Below, in pieces: positions 47,956-58,711 of a stretch of 64,000 bases of DNA (position 1 is the first letter of the stretch; the number at the start of each line of letters is the position of its first letter). Origin of the DNA: Flavobacteriia bacterium (GTDB lineage: Bacteria; Bacteroidota; Bacteroidia; Flavobacteriales; Weeksellaceae); the NCBI GenBank assembly GCA_019455045.1, contig JACFND010000008.1:1-64000 (forward strand), read 5' to 3'. Under the pieces are notes generated by a model. The model searched no databases. It had not been told where the DNA came from and saw only the letters and a program-made list of their open reading frames with translations. The translations under genes and the position numbers were made by a program.

Positions 47956-49854
47956 ATGAAATTTATAAAAATACTGATCATCGTCTCAGGCTTCGGATTT
48001 TTGAATGCACAGGAATTTGCAGTCGGCAACATTCCCTCAAAACTGACCGATGATGCCTATGCGGTGGTCAGAAAAGACGAAACAAAAGTTGAATTTATCA
48101 ATTACGACAAACTGAAATATTCAAACGAATATGTGGTCACTGTGCTCAACGAAAGCGGTTTGAGATACGGTTTTCAGCCGCTGTATTATGACAAACGGAT
48201 GAAAATCAGCAAATACACCGCAGTGATTTATGACAAAGACGGAAAGGAAATTAAAAAATTAAAATCAAAAGATCTGAAAGACATCAGCGTCTATGACGGT
48301 TCTGCCCTTTTTGTTGATTATCGGCTGCAGTATTACGAATTCACACCTGTCTCCTATCCGTTCACGGTACAGTATTATCAGGAATATACCACTTCAAATA
48401 CGATCGTGATTCCCGGTTGGAGAGCTGTCGGCACCTACAATCTGGGCATTGAAAATTCAAGCTATGAACTGACCAATTTATCGTCAATTCAAATCAGAAA
48501 AAAGGAATCCGGATTTGACGGATGGAAAGTAAATAAAACTGAAATCGGAAACAAACTCAATTATTCGATTCAGGACATTCCGCCGGTTCAGGAAGAAGTT
48601 TTGAGTCCGGTTCTGAGCGAACTCAGTCCGCTGGTGAAACTGATTCCAAATAAATTTCAGCTCGAAGGCGTCAACGGAAGTTTTGAAAACTGGGAACAGT
48701 TTGGAAAATGGTATTACAGCAATCTGCTCAACAACAAAAGAGATCTGACTGCAAAAGACAAACAGACGGTTTCACAGCTCATCAGCGGCGTCAGCGATCC
48801 GGTTGAAAAAATCAGAATCCTTTATCAGTATATGCAGTCAAAAACCAGATATGTGAATGTGGTGATCGGCATCGGCGGCTGGGAACCTTTTCCGGCTTCG
48901 TATGTGGGCGACAAAAGCTACGGCGACTGCAAGGCATTGTCAAATTACATGATCAGTCTGCTTGACTATGCGGGCATTGAGGCATTCTACACCATTGTTT
49001 ACGGAAACAGCAGCAGAAAGCAGGATATGGACGATCAGTTTGCATCTCTTCAGGGAAATCACATCATTGTGAATGTTCCGCTGGACGAACAAACCATCTG
49101 GCTTGAATGCACCAGCCAGCAGACCGCTTTCAATTATCTCGGAAGTTTTACGGATGACCGTTATGCGGTTTCTGTAAAACCAACCGGCGCGGAAGTGGTG
49201 TCCACCCAAAAATATACGGTTGATCAGAATCTGAACAAAATCAGCGGCCAGGCAGAATTGTTTGCAGACGGAAAATTGAACATGAATTTTGAACAGGAAG
49301 ACATCGGTTTGCTCTACGACAGCGCAAGCAGCATTTATTTTGAATCTGAAAAAGACCGTGTCCAATCGCTCAGAAGCATGTTTTCCGAAGTTCCGAATTT
49401 TGACATGAAAAATTATGAACTCACAAATGACAGGGACAATGCGGTTTTCAGGACTTCAATCCAATTTGAATCCGGCCACTATGCATCGGTCGTCGGGAAC
49501 AGTCTGCTGATCAATCTGCTGCCTGTCGGAAAAAGCAAAACCGGACTGAAGAAAAACAACCAAAGAAAATTTCCGTTCGAAATCAGATTCGGCTATACCG
49601 ATGTGGTTGAATATGATCTGAAACTTCCAAACGGATACAAAATAAGCGAGAAATTTGACAACATCATCTATATGACCGAATTCGGAAATTATCTGCTTGC
49701 CGTCAAAGAAAACGGTGATGGAAGTCTGAAAATCCACAGGACGATGACGGTCAAAGACGGAAATTACAGTAAAGATAAATTCAACGATTTTGTGGAATTT
49801 ACACGAAAAGTATCCTCTTTTGACAATTCAAAAGTTTTGCTGGAAAAAAAATAA
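47956..49854 (+). CDS. DUF3857 protein with intact transglutaminase-like domain
   Basis: The 632-residue exported protein has a signal peptide cleaved after LNAQ, then a DUF3857 beta domain (about 45-230) and a transglutaminase-like domain. The likely catalytic set is Cys325 in YGDCKALSNYM, His369 in GNHIIVNV and an acidic partner Glu384 in WLECTS. A C-terminal DUF2569-like extension continues to the end. Such proteins probably process or link extracellular material, but no substrate is known. A paralogue lacking the Cys follows 20 bp downstream. Confidence 0.85.
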   Translation: MKFIKILIIVSGFGFLNAQEFAVGNIPSKLTDDAYAVVRKDETKVEFINYDKLKYSNEYVVTVLNESGLRYGFQPLYYDKRMKISKYTAVIYDKDGKEIKKLKSKDLKDISVYDGSALFVDYRLQYYEFTPVSYPFTVQYYQEYTTSNTIVIPGWRAVGTYNLGIENSSYELTNLSSIQIRKKESGFDGWKVNKTEIGNKLNYSIQDIPPVQEEVLSPVLSELSPLVKLIPNKFQLEGVNGSFENWEQFGKWYYSNLLNNKRDLTAKDKQTVSQLISGVSDPVEKIRILYQYMQSKTRYVNVVIGIGGWEPFPASYVGDKSYGDCKALSNYMISLLDYAGIEAFYTIVYGNSSRKQDMDDQFASLQGNHIIVNVPLDEQTIWLECTSQQTAFNYLGSFTDDRYAVSVKPTGAEVVSTQKYTVDQNLNKISGQAELFADGKLNMNFEQEDIGLLYDSASSIYFESEKDRVQSLRSMFSEVPNFDMKNYELTNDRDNAVFRTSIQFESGHYASVVGNSLLINLLPVGKSKTGLKKNNQRKFPFEIRFGYTDVVEYDLKLPNGYKISEKFDNIIYMTEFGNYLLAVKENGDGSLKIHRTMTVKDGNYSKDKFNDFVEFTRKVSSFDNSKVLLEKK

Positions 49855-49874
49855 CAATAGAAAATTAACACAAT

Positions 49875-51821
49875 ATGAGAACCCTATACTTATTAATTAT
49901 TTGTCTTTCGATGGCCGTGCTGAACGGTCAGAATCGAAAATACGGAAAAATCACAAAAGAAGAAGTTGAAGTGCAGAAAAGCAGCTCGGAACCCGATGCC
50001 GCTGCAGAAGTAATCTATGAAACCGCTGTGGTGGCCATTGAATACTCGGTGACTGAACGCACGCTCAAAGCCAATAAAGAGGTTGAAGGAAGAATCAAAA
50101 TTTATGACAAGGACAGAGCCGATGATGAATTGTTCACGGTAGAAGTTCCGCTTTACATTTCTTCAGGCGCAGACAGAGAAAAGCTGATAGAATTCAAAGG
50201 TGCAACTGCAAATATAGAAGGCGGAAAACTGGTCAGCACCAAAGTTAAAAATTCGGATATATTTACAGACCGAAAAAACAAACGATGGGAAACCCAGACG
50301 ATGACCTTTCCGAATGTGAAAAACGGTTCGGTGATCGAATACAGATATGTGGTCGAAACTCCGTTTTTCTTTGATCTGGGCAGATGGTTCTTTCAGCGCG
50401 ACATACCTGTTCAATACAGTTCATACAAACTGATCGCTCCCGAACAGATCGTGTTCAGCAACGACTTCAGAGGCGGAATCACGCCAAAGATTAAAACCGA
50501 CAGAATCACCAATTTCCAGTTTGGCAACACCGAGGCAGTGACTGAATATATACTCGAGAAAATACCGTCATTAAAAGATGAACCCTATGTTTTGAATTCT
50601 GACAATATGATGGCTTCCCTCCGATACGAAATCATGAAACTCGAATATCCGGGAATCATCACTCAGAATTATTCAACCACCTGGACACAAATCGGAAAAG
50701 ACCTGATGGACAGCCCTGATTTTGGCGGTCAGCTCAAAGGCAACAACTTTTTGGATGAAACGGTGAACAGTCTGATTGCAGGCGCAGACACTCCGTTTGA
50801 CAAGACTTCAAAAATATTCAATTATGTAAAAAATAATTTTGCCTGGGATAAATTCAATTCAATCATTCCGGACAACGGTCTGAGACAGACCTTTAAAAAC
50901 AAAACCGGAAATGCGGCAGACATCAATATGCTATTGGTTTCAATGCTCCAAAAAGCAGGAATCGATGCGGCACCGGTTGTGCTGAGTACGGTCAATAATC
51001 TGATCATCAATTATTCGTTTCCTTCGAGAAGCAGTCTGAATTTTCTGATTGCAAGCGCAGTAATCAACGACAAACTCTATTTGATGGATGCAACCGAAAA
51101 ATTCAGCGATATCAATATGCTGCCGTTGAGAGATTTGAACCAGAGAGGATTCAGAATTACCGATAAAGGTGTACAGGAAATTCCGCTGACCAATTATTCG
51201 CTCAGTACTTCAAAAATTTCGATCAATGCTGCTTTGGAATCAGACGGAAGCATCAGCGGTAATTTTTCGGAAGTCAGAGATATGTATTTTGCAATGTCTG
51301 ACAAGATGGCCCAGTCTGACAATCCGAAATCATTTGAAAAAAGATATTTGAGAAATTACAATTTTGACCCGGAAGGATTTAAAATTGATGAAAATGCTGA
51401 AAAAGGAATCATCAGATACAGTTTTAAATTTGAAGATTTGCAGGGCGGCGATGCGGTCGGAAATAAAATCATCGTCAATCCGATGCTTTTTGAACAGCTG
51501 ACAAAAAATTCATTTACACACGACAGCAGAAGCTATCCGATCGAATTCGGAACTGCAGCAAACGAAACCACCATCATCAAAATCAAAATTCCGGACGGAT
51601 ACAAAGTGGAATCGCTTCCTCAGCAGAAACAGCATCTCGTACAGGGTGACGTGGCCGGTTATGCTTATCAGGTGCAGGAACAAAACGGTTATATTGTCGT
51701 TACAACCGTTTTCCAACTGAGCCAGAGCTCATTGCCGCCAACTTATTATCAGCCAATGAAAGAACTTGAAAAACAGCAGATTGCAGCAGAAGCTCAACAG
51801 CTTGTGCTGGTAAAAGAATAA
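49875..51821 (+). CDS. DUF3857/transglutaminase-fold paralogue without catalytic Cys
   Basis: The 648-residue protein has a signal peptide (cleaved after LNGQ), a DUF3857 domain and a transglutaminase-like fold, as in the gene before it. Where the neighbour has GDCKALS this protein reads GNAADINM, so the Cys position is Ala347. The His region is SSLNFLIAS, with no His; only the Asp of YLMDATEKF remains. It is therefore probably not an enzyme but a binding or regulatory partner. The two genes are in one operon and likely arose by duplication. Confidence 0.85.
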   Translation: MRTLYLLIICLSMAVLNGQNRKYGKITKEEVEVQKSSSEPDAAAEVIYETAVVAIEYSVTERTLKANKEVEGRIKIYDKDRADDELFTVEVPLYISSGADREKLIEFKGATANIEGGKLVSTKVKNSDIFTDRKNKRWETQTMTFPNVKNGSVIEYRYVVETPFFFDLGRWFFQRDIPVQYSSYKLIAPEQIVFSNDFRGGITPKIKTDRITNFQFGNTEAVTEYILEKIPSLKDEPYVLNSDNMMASLRYEIMKLEYPGIITQNYSTTWTQIGKDLMDSPDFGGQLKGNNFLDETVNSLIAGADTPFDKTSKIFNYVKNNFAWDKFNSIIPDNGLRQTFKNKTGNAADINMLLVSMLQKAGIDAAPVVLSTVNNLIINYSFPSRSSLNFLIASAVINDKLYLMDATEKFSDINMLPLRDLNQRGFRITDKGVQEIPLTNYSLSTSKISINAALESDGSISGNFSEVRDMYFAMSDKMAQSDNPKSFEKRYLRNYNFDPEGFKIDENAEKGIIRYSFKFEDLQGGDAVGNKIIVNPMLFEQLTKNSFTHDSRSYPIEFGTAANETTIIKIKIPDGYKVESLPQQKQHLVQGDVAGYAYQVQEQNGYIVVTTVFQLSQSSLPPTYYQPMKELEKQQIAAEAQQLVLVKE

Positions 51822-52157: not shown

Positions 52158-53381
52158 ATGGACGAACTCCTGATTCTGAAGAAATCAAAGCTCAGACCAT
52201 CGGCAGAAATACTGATTCCGGGTTCAAAAAGCGAATGTAACCGGCTGCTGATTCTCAATTCGCTTTATTCAAATCCAATCAGGATTCACAATCTGTCAAC
52301 CGCTGAAGACACCCGTGTGATGCTGGATGCGCTGAATTCGGATACTGAAAAAATCGATATCATTCATGCAGGAACCGCAATGCGTTTTTTGACTGCTTAT
52401 TTTTCGATTTGTGAAGACAGAACAGTCATACTCACCGGTTCGGAACGGATGAAACAGCGTCCGATCGGAATTCTTGTCGATGCGCTGAATGCTTTGGGTG
52501 CAGATATTTCCTACGTTGAAAAAGAAGGATTCCCGCCATTAAAAATCAACGGAAAAAAAATTCATAAAAACGAAATCGAACTGGCTGCCGGCATCAGCAG
52601 TCAGTTTGTTTCGGCGCTGATGCTGATTTCACCAAAATTGGAAAGCGGTCTGAATATTCGTCTCAGGGATGAACCGACTTCAAAACCGTATATCGAAATG
52701 ACAGCGAGGATTCTGAAAAAATTGGGTGTTGAAATAATTGAAAATAATCAATCCATTCAAATCAAACCCAAACAAAAAATCGATGAATGCGATTGGCAGA
52801 TCGAATCTGATTTCAGTTCTGCTTCTTATTATTTTTCATTGGCTGCATTGTCAGAAGATTCTGAAATCAGAATCGGAAAATTCAGCAAAGAAAGCTTTCA
52901 GGGCGATTCAAAAGTGATTGAAATTTATCAAAAATATTTTGGTGTTGAAACCCGGTTTGAAGATGATTGGATGATATTGAAAAGAAATCCGGATTTTGAA
53001 TTCAAATCATTCGAAATCGATCTGAACGATACACCCGATCTGGCACAAACCATTGCAGTTACAGCAGCCGCATTAAAAATCAGATGCAGGCTGACCGGTT
53101 TAAAAACATTAAAAATTAAAGAAACCGACCGTTTGGAAGCGCTTTGTTCAGAACTCAGAAAAATCGGTGCGGAATCAAAAACAGATCAGGATTCAATTGA
53201 ATTGTACAATTTCTTTGAAACAACTGAAATTCCGGAAATCGAAACCTTTGACGACCACAGGATGGCTATGAGTTTTGCGCCTTTGTGTCTGAAAAGAGAA
53301 TTAAAAATTAAAAATCCAAAGGTGGTTGAAAAATCGTATCCCAACTTTTGGAATGATCTTGAAAACTGTTTTTTGAAATAA
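52158..53381 (+). CDS. aroA: 5-enolpyruvylshikimate-3-phosphate synthase
   Basis: AroA makes EPSP from shikimate-3-phosphate and PEP in the aromatic amino acid pathway. The 407-residue protein has GSKSECNRLLIL (the usual second Ser/Ile pair of GSKSISNR is Glu-Cys here), the AEDTRVM and HAGTAMRFLTAYF motifs, SERMKQRPIGIL, and near the C-terminus IKETDRLEAL and DDHRMAMSFAPL. It ends the dtd operon and is not linked to the nearby trpB2, which runs on the opposite strand, although both serve aromatic amino acids. Confidence 0.95.
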   Translation: MDELLILKKSKLRPSAEILIPGSKSECNRLLILNSLYSNPIRIHNLSTAEDTRVMLDALNSDTEKIDIIHAGTAMRFLTAYFSICEDRTVILTGSERMKQRPIGILVDALNALGADISYVEKEGFPPLKINGKKIHKNEIELAAGISSQFVSALMLISPKLESGLNIRLRDEPTSKPYIEMTARILKKLGVEIIENNQSIQIKPKQKIDECDWQIESDFSSASYYFSLAALSEDSEIRIGKFSKESFQGDSKVIEIYQKYFGVETRFEDDWMILKRNPDFEFKSFEIDLNDTPDLAQTIAVTAAALKIRCRLTGLKTLKIKETDRLEALCSELRKIGAESKTDQDSIELYNFFETTEIPEIETFDDHRMAMSFAPLCLKRELKIKNPKVVEKSYPNFWNDLENCFLK

Positions 53382-53388
53382 AAGAATC

Positions 53389-53416
53389 GAGGGCTTTCAG
53401 ACAATTGAAAACCCTC
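53389..53416 (-). terminator. Convergent terminator between aroA and trpB2
   Basis: A 10-bp stem (53389-53398 with 53407-53416) pairs fully only on the minus-strand RNA, where one position is U-G; on the plus strand it is a C-A mismatch. It therefore mainly ends trpB2, 14 bp past its stop, with a modest T-rich tail. Confidence 0.65.
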
Positions 53417-53429
53417 AATTCAATCCTCT

Positions 53430-54803
53430 TCAAATCGCCATTTTTGGCTGTGATGCTTCAATTTCGGCCAAACTTCTCTCAATTTCCGCAGAACTCAATT
53501 CGTGCTCAACCAGTTTTCCTTCATTGAAATCACCATAAGCAGCCATGTCCAGAAATCCGTGACCCGACAGATTGAACAATATGGTTTTCTGTTCGCCGGT
53601 CTCTCTGCAGATCATCGCTTCTCTCACCGCCTGCGCAATTCCGTGATTTGATTCGGGTGCCGGAATGATTCCTTCGGTTTTTGCAAACAGTTGTCCCGCT
53701 TTGAAACATTCAATCTGATTCAGCGCTGAAGCTTCAACCAGACCATCTTTGAGCAATTGTGAAACCAAAACGCTTGCACCGTGATATCTCAAACCGCCGG
53801 CATGAATCGGCTCGGGTTCAAAATTATGACCCAGCGTGTACATCGGCAGCAAAGGTGTCAGACCCTGGGTATCACCAAAATCATACATAAATTTTCCGCG
53901 TGTCAGTTTCGGACAGGAAGCAGCTTCCACTGCAATCGCCCTCACCTCTTTTTTGTTTTGAAGTTTATTTCTCAAAAACGGAAAAGCAAGACCCGCAAAG
54001 TTGGAACCTCCGCCCAGCGGCGCAATCACGATATCAGGATAATCATCAGCCATCTCAAACTGTTTCAAAGCTTCCTCGCCGATAATGGTCTGATGAAGCA
54101 GCACATGATTCAAAACCGAACCCAGCGAATATTTGGTCTGATCATCTTTTACAGCCATTTCAACCGCTTCGGAAATTGCAATTCCAAGACTTCCGTTTGA
54201 ATTCGGATGCTGTTCCAAAATCCTTTTTCCTGCTTCGGTACGATTGCTCGGCGACGGATAAACATTTGCACCGTAGGTATTCATCATAATTTTTCGATAC
54301 GGTTTCTGCTGAAAACTCACTTTCACCATATACACTTCACATTCGATCCCAAACAGCGCGCAAGCATACGACAAAGCCGATCCCCACTGGCCTGCACCGG
54401 TTTCGGTCGTAATCTTTTTTGTGCCTGCTTTGGCATTGTAAAAAGCCTGCGCAATTGCGGTATTGGTCTTGTGCGAACCGCTTGGCGACACACCTTCGTA
54501 TTTGAAATAAATCTTTGCGGGTGTCTTCAGTGCTTTTTCCAATTCGGTGGCTCTGATCAGCGGTGACGGACGGTACATCAGATATTTTTCTCTCACTTCT
54601 TCCGGAATTTCAATAAATCTTTCGGTCGAAACTTCCTGCTCGATCAGTTCCATCGGAAAAAGAGGAGCCAGCGCTTCTGGTCCGATTGGTTCACCGGTTG
54701 CCGGATGCAGCGGCGGCAATGGTTTGTTGGGCATGTCCGCTGCAATGTTATACCAGAATTTCGGCATCCGGTCTTCACTTAAAAAATACTTTTTCTGTTT
54801 CAT
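53430..54803 (-). CDS. trpB2: Tryptophan synthase beta chain, TrpB2 type
   Basis: TrpB condenses indole with serine to make tryptophan. The 457-residue protein is longer than TrpB1 and starts with the TrpB2-type N-terminus ([33 protein letters not shown]). It carries the PLP lysine in [15 protein letters not shown], the catalytic-loop-like region [14 protein letters not shown] and the phosphate-binding [11 protein letters not shown]. TrpB2 enzymes usually act as stand-alone salvage enzymes for indole. Here it is a single-gene unit behind a complete tryptophan attenuator. No trpA or other trp gene is nearby. Confidence 0.95.
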
Positions 54804-54843
54804 CTTTTTATCATTTAAAGGTTAATCATTCATTTTTGGGCAT

Positions 54844-54877
54844 AAAAAAACCGCCTGAAAAGCATTTCAGACGGTTT
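54844..54877 (-). terminator. Attenuator terminator upstream of trpB2
   Basis: A 13-bp stem (54848-54860 with 54865-54877, one U-G pair on the minus-strand RNA) has a 4-nt loop and is followed by seven U's (54844-54850). It sits 41 bp upstream of the trpB2 start and after a leader peptide, so it ends transcription before the gene. Its 5' arm can pair instead with sequence just after the leader Trp codons. Confidence 0.93.
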
Positions 54878-54946
54878 CCTGACCTAATTGTATTTTTTAT
54901 TCAATTATTCAATACAAAAATCGGGCGCATCGTCTGAAACGGACGA
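54865..54946 (-). promoter_or_regulatory. Pause and antiterminator helices of the trp attenuator
   Basis: On the minus-strand RNA, 54942-54946 pairs with 54930-54934 (5 bp, segment 1:2). Segment 54931-54939 also pairs perfectly over 9 bp with 54865-54873 (segment 2:3, antiterminator), which in turn is the 5' arm of the terminator (segment 3:4). The helices are mutually exclusive. Trp codons lie at 54950-54958, so a stalled ribosome would cover segment 1 and leave segment 2 free to pair with segment 3. Confidence 0.9.
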
Positions 54947-54991
54947 CAGCCACCACCAGTTTGTATTCAAAAATTGATTCATTTTCTGCAT
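54905..54991 (-). CDS. trpL: Trp leader peptide (attenuator)
   Basis: A 28-codon frame, too short for usual gene calling, begins at an ATG (54989-54991); a second ATG at 54980-54982 is also possible. The stop TAA is at 54905-54907. It contains three consecutive Trp codons (residues 12-14, in LNTNWWWLSS), an extremely unlikely chance event, then a 14-residue tail. It lies between a canonical promoter and the attenuator terminator. The peptide is a ribosome-stalling sensor of charged tRNA-Trp, not a product. Confidence 0.92.
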   Translation of the reverse strand: MQKMNQFLNTNWWWLSSVSDDAPDFCIE

Positions 54992-55001
54992 TGTTGTCTG
55001 G

Positions 55002-55031
55002 CAAATGTAGAAAATATTTTGAATTCGCAAA
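55002..55031 (-). promoter_or_regulatory. Promoter of the trp leader-trpB2 unit
   Basis: On the minus strand a -33 TTTG (55028-55031) and a perfect -7 TACATTTG (55002-55009) are 18 bp apart. The start of transcription would lie only a few bases before the leader ATG. Confidence 0.75.
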
Positions 55032-55148
55032 TTAATTTTAAAACTTTTTGATTTTTGATTTTTGAATTTTACAATTGAACTTTAAAGCGATTCAACATAA
55101 GTTTTGTAACTTTAAAGCTGAAAAAATTTAATCATTAAAAATTTAATT

Positions 55149-55661
55149 ATGAATCTTTTAAAAATACCTGCACTCTGTCTTGCAGCCATGCTTTTTTCGG
55201 TTTCCTGTTCATCGACAAAAGAAATTTCCTATGACATCACCGGCCGCGCCGGAACGCCCACAGCCGGCACCGTAACTTTCTTCCAAAAAGACGGCAAAGT
55301 GACCATGACCGTAAAAGCTAGCGGTCTGACACCGGGTCTGCATGCGATCCATCTTCATGAAAAAGCAGATTGCTCTGCACCCGATTTCACTTCGACTGGC
55401 GGACACTGGAATCCAGCCGGATCAGATCACGGACGCTGGGGCGCAGAGCATTTTCACATGGGTGATATCGGTAATCTGAATGCAGATGCGGACGGAAATG
55501 CAGCAATGCTTTTTATTACAGACAAATGGTGCATCGGATGTAAAGATGCTTCAAAAAATATCATCGGAAAGGGAGTCATCATTCACGACACTCTTGATGA
55601 TTTTCATACACAGCCGACCGGTAATGCAGGCGGCAGGGTTGGCTGCGTTGAAATCAAATAA
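55149..55661 (+). CDS. sodC: Cu/Zn superoxide dismutase family lipoprotein
   Basis: SodC removes superoxide in the periplasm or at the outer surface. The 170-residue protein has a lipobox ending at Cys20 (SVSC). Metal and structural motifs are present: HAIHLHEKADC, GGHWNPAGSDHGRWGAEHFHMGD, split as GGHWNP and AEHFHMGDIGNL, then VIIHDTLDDF and a C-terminal GNAGGRVGCVEI with the disulphide cysteines. All expected His ligands are seen. It is monocistronic with a strong terminator, divergent from the trp leader. Confidence 0.93.
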   Translation: MNLLKIPALCLAAMLFSVSCSSTKEISYDITGRAGTPTAGTVTFFQKDGKVTMTVKASGLTPGLHAIHLHEKADCSAPDFTSTGGHWNPAGSDHGRWGAEHFHMGDIGNLNADADGNAAMLFITDKWCIGCKDASKNIIGKGVIIHDTLDDFHTQPTGNAGGRVGCVEIK

Positions 55662-57803: not shown

Positions 57804-58274
57804 ATGAAAAAGAGATGGATTGTATTGTTTTTAGCGTTAGGCAGTATTATATTTCTTACTTTATTAATAGTAATAGCAATTCCGTTTTCAAATTTTTTAC
57901 CTGGATTTATAGAGCGAGAAACTTTTATGAAGGATTTTGATTTGGAGTTAAAGGGCAGAATAATTGAAATAAAAGCTGATAAATCTCTAAGTATTGCTTG
58001 TTTGAAAGTGGAAGAATCCAACTATAAAGAATTCAGGATGGAAAATGACAGATTTTTTATTCGAGTTAAAGATTCTTTGGCTGTATTAATTTATAACACA
58101 ATGCCCGGAAATTCCCCTCGCTACTATATGTATGAAAATGGTACGGAATTGTTGATTAATTATAAAAACAATTGGCAGGTTCTTGTAATTGAAAATGGAG
58201 ACACGGTTGATATAAGCCCTATTTGGAACTATCCTACTCGAGATTATCTGAATAACAGTTGCATTCCTAATTAA
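57804..58274 (+). CDS. Orphan membrane-anchored protein, first of a tandem pair
   Basis: The 156-residue protein has one N-terminal membrane helix (about residues 5-28) and a small exported domain. It shares a clear pattern with the next protein: LELKGRIIEI, ACLKVEESNYKEFR, FFIRVKDSLAV, the ENGDT segment and a terminal NSCIPN. This marks a tandem duplication. The domain has no name I recognise. Coding is AT-rich. Tandem variants like these are typical of immunity or lineage-specific surface genes. Confidence 0.6.
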   Translation: MKKRWIVLFLALGSIIFLTLLIVIAIPFSNFLPGFIERETFMKDFDLELKGRIIEIKADKSLSIACLKVEESNYKEFRMENDRFFIRVKDSLAVLIYNTMPGNSPRYYMYENGTELLINYKNNWQVLVIENGDTVDISPIWNYPTRDYLNNSCIPN

Positions 58275-58279
58275 ATTCT

Positions 58280-58711
58280 ATGAAAAAGAAGAAATTCATT
58301 TTAGGATTAATGATAATCATAGAAATATTTTTAATCATTGTTATTGTATACCAAATAAAATCCAGCTCTATCCATGAGCCTCCAAAAAGAGTTGTAATAG
58401 AGTTGAAAGGGAAAATAATTCATATTTCTTCACATGATGATTTTAATATGGCATGTTTAAAAGTTGAAAAGTCTAACTATACAGAGTACAGAAAGGAAAC
58501 TGCTGAATTTTTCATAAGAGTGAAAGACTCATTGGCAGTTATGGTTTATCCTGCTTCTAATCAATCACTCAAAATTGGCTCTGAAATTTTAGTCAATTAT
58601 AATCACGATCATCAAATTTTGGAATTAGAAAAAGGAGATACGATCAGTAAACAGAAGATTGTGTTTTTTCCAATAGGAAATTATATCAAAGACAGTTGTA
58701 TTCCAGAGTAA
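58280..58711 (+). CDS. Orphan membrane-anchored protein, second of a tandem pair
   Basis: The 143-residue protein is built like its neighbour 5 bp upstream: an N-terminal helix, then IELKGKIIHI, ACLKVEKSNYTEYR, FFIRVKDSLAV, EKGDT and a C-terminal KDSCIPE. The shared core is well conserved while the linker after the helix and the segment before EKGDT differ in length and sequence. The conserved cysteines (one in ACLKVE, one in the terminal SCIP) may form a disulphide bond. Function unknown. Confidence 0.6.
   Translation: MKKKKFILGLMIIIEIFLIIVIVYQIKSSSIHEPPKRVVIELKGKIIHISSHDDFNMACLKVEKSNYTEYRKETAEFFIRVKDSLAVMVYPASNQSLKIGSEILVNYNHDHQILELEKGDTISKQKIVFFPIGNYIKDSCIPE

Follow-up and report, generated by a model that had tools for sequence, protein, structure and literature searches.

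The stand-alone trpB2 gene of this Flavobacteriia genome is preceded by a predicted tryptophan attenuator. Switches of this kind are known, but this gene was not expected to have one; comparison among related loci supports the assignment well. The element is very probably a ribosome-mediated transcription attenuator, by which trpB2 expression would follow the availability of charged tRNA-Trp. It lies on the minus strand at 54844-55031 of the window, which is the whole 64,000-nt stretch of contig JACFND010000008.1 that was analysed, and it consists of a promoter-like box pair, a leader ORF that contains a run of three Trp codons (WWW), a 1:2 helix, an antiterminator and an intrinsic terminator (Table 1). 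The mutually exclusive 1:2, 2:3 and 3:4 helices follow in this order and the terminator stands before the gene, as in ribosome-mediated Trp attenuators. The first-pass annotation had proposed a complete attenuator before a lone trpB2, and every part of it was found in the sequence.

Table 1. Features of the trpB2 leader, its target gene and the surrounding cassette.
Feature	Position	Strand	Basis
Promoter -33 box TTTG	55028..55031	-	Sequence; 18-nt spacer to -7 box
Promoter -7 box TACATTTG, Bacteroidota TAnnTTTG type	55002..55009	-	TAnnTTTG box before leader in 7/7 clade members
Leader ORF (most likely start), 25 codons + stop, peptide MNQFLNTNWWWLSSVSDDAPDFCIE	54905..54982	-	ATG fixed 24 nt before WWW in 7/7 clade members
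Three consecutive Trp codons, putative stall site	54950..54958	-	Sequence; invariant in clade
Outer 1:2 helix, 8 bp, 54967-54960/54918-54911	54911..54967	-	Fold; 71% of cells paired in alignment register
Inner 1:2 (pause) helix, 6 bp, 54947-54942/54934-54929	54929..54947	-	97% of cells paired in clade over 5 pairs counted
Antiterminator segment 2, CGTTTCAGACG	54931..54941	-	11-bp pairing with segment 3, -16.3 kcal/mol
Antiterminator segment 3, CGTCTGAAATG, overlapping terminator 5' arm	54863..54873	-	Pairing with segment 2
Intrinsic terminator, 13-bp stem 54877-54865/54860-54848 and U-run to 54844	54844..54877	-	-17.3 kcal/mol; compensatory changes in clade
trpB2, 457 aa, sole target gene	53430..54803	-	TIGR01415 638.9 bits, NF009057 726.8 bits
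Terminator after trpB2	53384..53421	-	Sequence
Leader-trpB2 cassette	53376..55053		Absent between aroA and sodC in sibling G004

The promoter proposed earlier, TTTG followed by an 18-nt spacer and TACATTTG, is present at 55031-55002. The TAnnTTTG box lies 27 nt before the leader ATG in four of the seven members of the closest clade and 14-30 nt before it in the others. The WWW frame was also read correctly, but the 28-codon peptide assigned to it from 54991 is most likely a 25-codon peptide that starts at the ATG at 54982, since all seven of the closest leaders have an ATG exactly eight codons before WWW and a TAnnTTTG box ahead of it. The second in-frame ATG of the source genome (54991-54989) is not shared by the closest-clade leaders. 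The three Trp codons are where they had been placed, and while the leader peptides vary elsewhere, their Trp run is conserved best. The pause helix, given before as 5 bp, has 6 bp, and an outer 8-bp helix had been missed; the outer helix encloses the Trp codons, which places them inside a larger 1:2 structure. The antiterminator likewise extends over 11 bp (54941-54931 with 54873-54863) and not 9 bp, and the 13-bp terminator with its U-tract needed no change. The U-run ends about 40 nt before the trpB2 start at 54803. Since the upstream gene sodC (Cu/Zn superoxide dismutase, 55149-55661) is divergent from the leader, the hairpin is not the end of another gene and can stop only the leader transcript. 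The leader region folds 4.6 sd better than its dinucleotide shuffles (z = -4.6).

When tryptophan is ample, the ribosome would cross WWW quickly and the 1:2 helix would re-form behind it, or the ribosome would cover segment 2. Segment 3 could then pair with segment 4, and RNA polymerase would stop at about 54844. When charged tRNA-Trp is short, the ribosome would stall at 54958-54950, blocking segment 1 and freeing segment 2, which would pair with segment 3, delay the terminator and allow transcription of trpB2. The organism, which appears to have no trpA, trpC or trpD, could then make tryptophan from scavenged indole. Constrained folding with the RNA 3' end at 54862-54853 gives the 1:2 helix in the absence of a ribosome; once a ribosome sits on the Trp codons, P(2:3) is 1.0, in line with the first description, in which such a ribosome frees segment 2. 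A ribosome at the stop codon allows the inner helix to re-form (P(1:2) = 0.82-1.0) and then the terminator to fold (P(3:4) = 0.99). Once the full terminator is transcribed, the 3:4 helix beats the antiterminator at equilibrium in every state, the stalled one included; therefore, the switch must be kinetic and decided while the polymerase is at 54862-54853. At 26 of 30 loci 2:3 pairs clearly more in the stalled state than in the stop state, a difference that is partly due to the mask covering segment 2 in early-stopping leaders. The two states are alike in 2:3 pairing at L003. In the source clade the leader runs 14 codons past WWW, with segment 2 inside the ORF and not at its stop codon.

The WWW leader and its helices recur upstream of trpB2 in related genomes, where the first-pass annotation had suggested to look for them. 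The sample comprises 148 trpB2 loci with at least 250 nt upstream, picked by similarity to this TrpB2. A frame with adjacent Trp codons (WW) is found in 36 of these regions against 2.25 in shuffles, and a WW leader with a terminator in 30 against none in 20 shuffled sets; the loci are not independent draws and some are closely related. Over the 30 loci, the segment after the Trp codons is complementary to the terminator 5' arm beyond shuffles (Stouffer z -11.6). Leader and terminator occur together locus by locus and are mostly missing together, and two trpB2 genes of the same clade (L007, L008) have no leader. The architecture is found before trpB2 in many Bacteroidota, Ignavibacteria and KSB1 genomes. 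Among cultured relatives, Chryseobacterium koreense CCUG 49689 (L005) carries the same leader as the source genome. The leader peptides differ strongly between groups (FLNTNWWWQS in the source clade, WWWWR..SLLS in Ignavibacteria types, WSWRS in some Bacteroidales), which indicates the same design on different sequence. Among the 30 of 32 TGGTGGTGG sites in the source genome that were read, there is no second WWW leader with an intrinsic terminator.

Some trpB2 loci have further peculiarities. In L045 the WWW leader and its terminator are shifted upstream by about 190 nt (-381 to -60), and inverted repeats separate the terminator from trpB2. One genome (G338) has two trpB2 genes (L146, L147), one with a WWW leader and terminator and the other, very divergent (49% identity), with neither. 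Ignavibacteria-type leaders (L064, L113, L114, L115, L117, L120, L131, L163) often have a second terminator-like hairpin directly after the attenuator terminator, with the related arm AGCCGTGA...CGGCTTTTT, which gives tandem terminators.

The covariation expected by the first-pass annotation was found in part. In the seven-sequence alignment of the source clade all terminator cells are paired (100%), and in two of the pairs both partners have changed; over the whole structure 88.8% of cells are paired, against 38-61% when slid. The antiterminator of this clade is 95.8% paired against 22-43% when slid, but it is nearly invariant, so its covariation is weak. In a second clade of ten Ignavibacteria-type leaders the antiterminator is 97% paired, with changes in both partners at four of its pairs (0 of 500 shuffles), and the terminator is 98% paired and nearly invariant.

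The gene behind the leader is identified as trpB2 by TIGR01415 (638.9 bits, cut-off 518.85) and NF009057 (726.8 bits, cut-off 366). The TrpB1 model TIGR00263 gives 156 bits, below its cut-off of 392. Since trpB2 has its own terminator downstream and converges on aroA, it is monocistronic, which agrees with its earlier description as the sole target. Elsewhere in the window, an adjacent pair of DUF3857/transglutaminase-type paralogues stands in tandem at 47956-51821, and 57804-58711 encodes two small paralogues side by side, which carry an N-terminal hydrophobic stretch and match no Pfam family.

The source genome is a draft of 2.59 Mb in 108 contigs, 99.4% complete, and has no match to trpA (PF00290), trpC (PF00218) or trpD (TIGR01245), for all of which control genomes match. 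As far as the draft goes, TrpB2 thus has no TrpA partner in the genome, as a stand-alone indole-salvage TrpB2 would. The siblings G001, G002 and G005 have trpA and trpD together with trpB1; since these genes are clustered there, one assembly gap is the sole artefact able to mimic the loss. The missing trpA, trpC and trpD fit indole salvage by the predicted TrpB2 activity, in which indole and serine or phosphoserine would give tryptophan. A role of TrpB2 in indole salvage has been reported for Thermococcus kodakarensis (Hiyama et al. 2014, as cited in PMC11085991). The earlier suggestion that TrpB2 is tuned to tryptophan starvation gains support from the anatomy, the recurrence, the covariation and the missing trp genes, all of them features of sequence.

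Among the genomes compared, trpA is absent in 22 of 36 with an attenuated trpB2 and in 7 of 38 with an unattenuated one (Fisher p = 0.0003), where one partial match is counted as absent and many genomes are drafts. In independent pairs, which correct for phylogeny, the trend is 4.8 to 0.2 with a median p of 0.06. The association of the attenuator with trpA loss is therefore suggestive after phylogenetic correction.

The leader and trpB2 seem to have entered the interval between aroA and sodC as a single cassette. Genome G004 (L210), from the same genus, has sodC immediately after aroA and no trpB2 between them. Matches to this empty site stop at 53375 and restart at 55054, and the extra 1.7 kb consist of the promoter, the leader, trpB2 and its terminator. 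Other trpB2 loci become similar in DNA sequence inside the 3' end of trpB2, and in the leader-bearing ones the similarity extends to 54767-55061; the neighbour genes of trpB2 are shared by none of the trpB2 loci compared. In the protein tree the source TrpB2 groups with two Saprospiraceae proteins (support 99) and falls within a nine-member clade (support 100) in which Weeksellaceae, Saprospiraceae and Chitinophagaceae are mixed. The empty site in G004 and the grouping with Saprospiraceae both suggest that the leader and the gene were transferred as a cassette. Transfer of both between bacteria, in whichever direction, is the simplest reading and probably took place. On the TrpB2 tree the presence of the attenuator requires at least 13 changes, 9 of them forced by well-supported branches. 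A wider proposal is that this is a self-contained, horizontally mobile indole-salvage cassette for Trp auxotrophs of the Bacteroidota and Ignavibacteria, and that trpB2 acquired attenuators repeatedly, preferentially in lineages that had lost trpA. The chances for and against this proposal are about equal.

The E. coli trp attenuator (RF00513 Trp_leader; Yanofsky) has adjacent Trp codons, alternative 1:2, 2:3 and 3:4 helices and an intrinsic terminator. The trpB2 leader shares with it the Trp leader peptide, the alternative helices and the intrinsic terminator, but has no Rfam sequence match to it and differs in its three Trp codons in a row, its single gene and the position of segment 2 inside the frame. 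Trp attenuators as such are already known in Bacteroidota on trp operons. Bacteroid-trp leaders have been listed as RF01692 (Weinberg et al. 2010, PMC2864571), and Flavobacterium psychrophilum is described as having one before its trp operon (PMC6414381). These are likewise leaders of Bacteroidota with a short WWW peptide after an LNNN-like stretch, a long helix holding the Trp codons and a U-tailed terminator, all of which the trpB2 leader has. However, they control biosynthetic genes led by trpE, trpB1 or trpD, whereas the gene here is a lone trpB2, and their stop codon is at segment 2, which the trpB2 leader runs past. In Corynebacterium diphtheriae attenuators are predicted before trpB1EDGC and trpB2A (PMC1262725). 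The common point is a predicted Trp attenuator before an operon that includes a gene named trpB2, but that gene has trpA behind it in a biosynthetic operon, whereas the TIGR01415-type trpB2 here stands alone in a genome with no trpA detected. In the open-access literature no description was found of a Trp attenuator on a lone trpB2 of the TIGR01415 type.

A further family, the trpB motif RF04312, occurs in Firmicutes and Fusobacteria and is listed as a riboswitch candidate, although its authors do not exclude a classical attenuator (PMC11109978). The architecture of this motif itself resembles an attenuator. Like the trpB2 leader, it has a hairpin, an antiterminator shoulder and a terminator before amino acid metabolism genes, sometimes trpB; unlike it, the motif mostly precedes transporters. 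At gathering thresholds no Rfam leader family reached its cut-off in the 64-kb window or in 20 related trpB2 loci. The trpB2 leader scores 20.7 bits with RF01692 (gathering score 49) and 23.4 bits with RF04312 (gathering score 59), and since it is below both cut-offs it is filed under neither family.

The likeness to RF01692 raises the question of descent. The trpB2 leader may work like the Bacteroid-trp leaders and may descend from them, in which case a divergent member was captured by trpB2 and is special only in its downstream gene. This origin is compatible with attenuation, and we regard it as a real possibility of slightly less than even chance. The trp operon leaders of siblings and relatives have the same LNNNWWW or LNTNWWW-like core and the same order of parts, and in cmscan RF01692 aligns over its full length, so that its Trp codons and those of the leader are in register. 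The sibling leaders before trpE do match the family (48.1 bits in G001, just below the cut-off, and 66.7 bits in G005, with trpE named from sequence and not by family search), whereas none of the 20 related trpB2 loci passes it. Segments 2 and 3 and the leader length also differ, since sibling trp operon leaders end at segment 2. When a model built from the trpB2 leaders (R1) was run on 395 genomes of the class, it picked up leaders of trp operons as well, for example in G088 at 42 bits, but between 40 and 50 bits it has little specificity. Most of its hits at 35-54 bits fall in AT-rich, terminator-like sequence, and about 9 of the 29 fetched hits besides the source carry a WWW leader; those read further precede trpE, trpB1 or trpD. 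The model was therefore rejected as a census of leaders, and no attenuator on an unrelated gene was established among its hits in the 395 genomes. WW or WWW leaders also precede trpB1-first or trpD-first genes in L185 (G103), L216 (G834) and L239 (G852), which places Trp attenuators of Bacteroidota on split trp operons as well.

Two other explanations were considered. A ligand- or protein-binding RNA might work the hairpin and U-run, with the Trp-rich frame incidental. The full-length match to RF04312 would fit such an RNA, but it is well below threshold and the family comes from Firmicutes and Fusobacteria. The conserved part of the leader is the Trp run with a start codon at a fixed distance, WW frames far exceed their number in shuffles, and no compact conserved aptamer core is visible, so this explanation is very improbable. 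It is just as doubtful that the terminator is constitutive, yielding a small RNA or insulating the gene, with trpB2 read from a second promoter or not regulated by tryptophan. The short interval between the U-run and the trpB2 ATG could hold a weak promoter. However, the terminator follows no upstream gene, given the divergent sodC, the antiterminator complementarity is well above shuffles and covaries, and leader and terminator are present together, and mostly missing together, from one locus to the next. Ribosome-mediated attenuation thus remains the preferred reading of the element.

Arguments about the physiological role of TrpB2 have so far relied mostly on gene neighbourhoods and on activities in vitro. 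A predicted Trp-starvation switch on a lone trpB2, in a genome with no trpA, trpC or trpD detected, points directly to tryptophan supply as this role. The ribosome-dependent regulator also seems to move between families together with its gene, and it is one more indication that the coupling of transcription and translation in Bacteroidota is tight enough for attenuation. If the mobile cassette is real, Trp auxotrophs would answer tryptophan starvation by scavenging indole.
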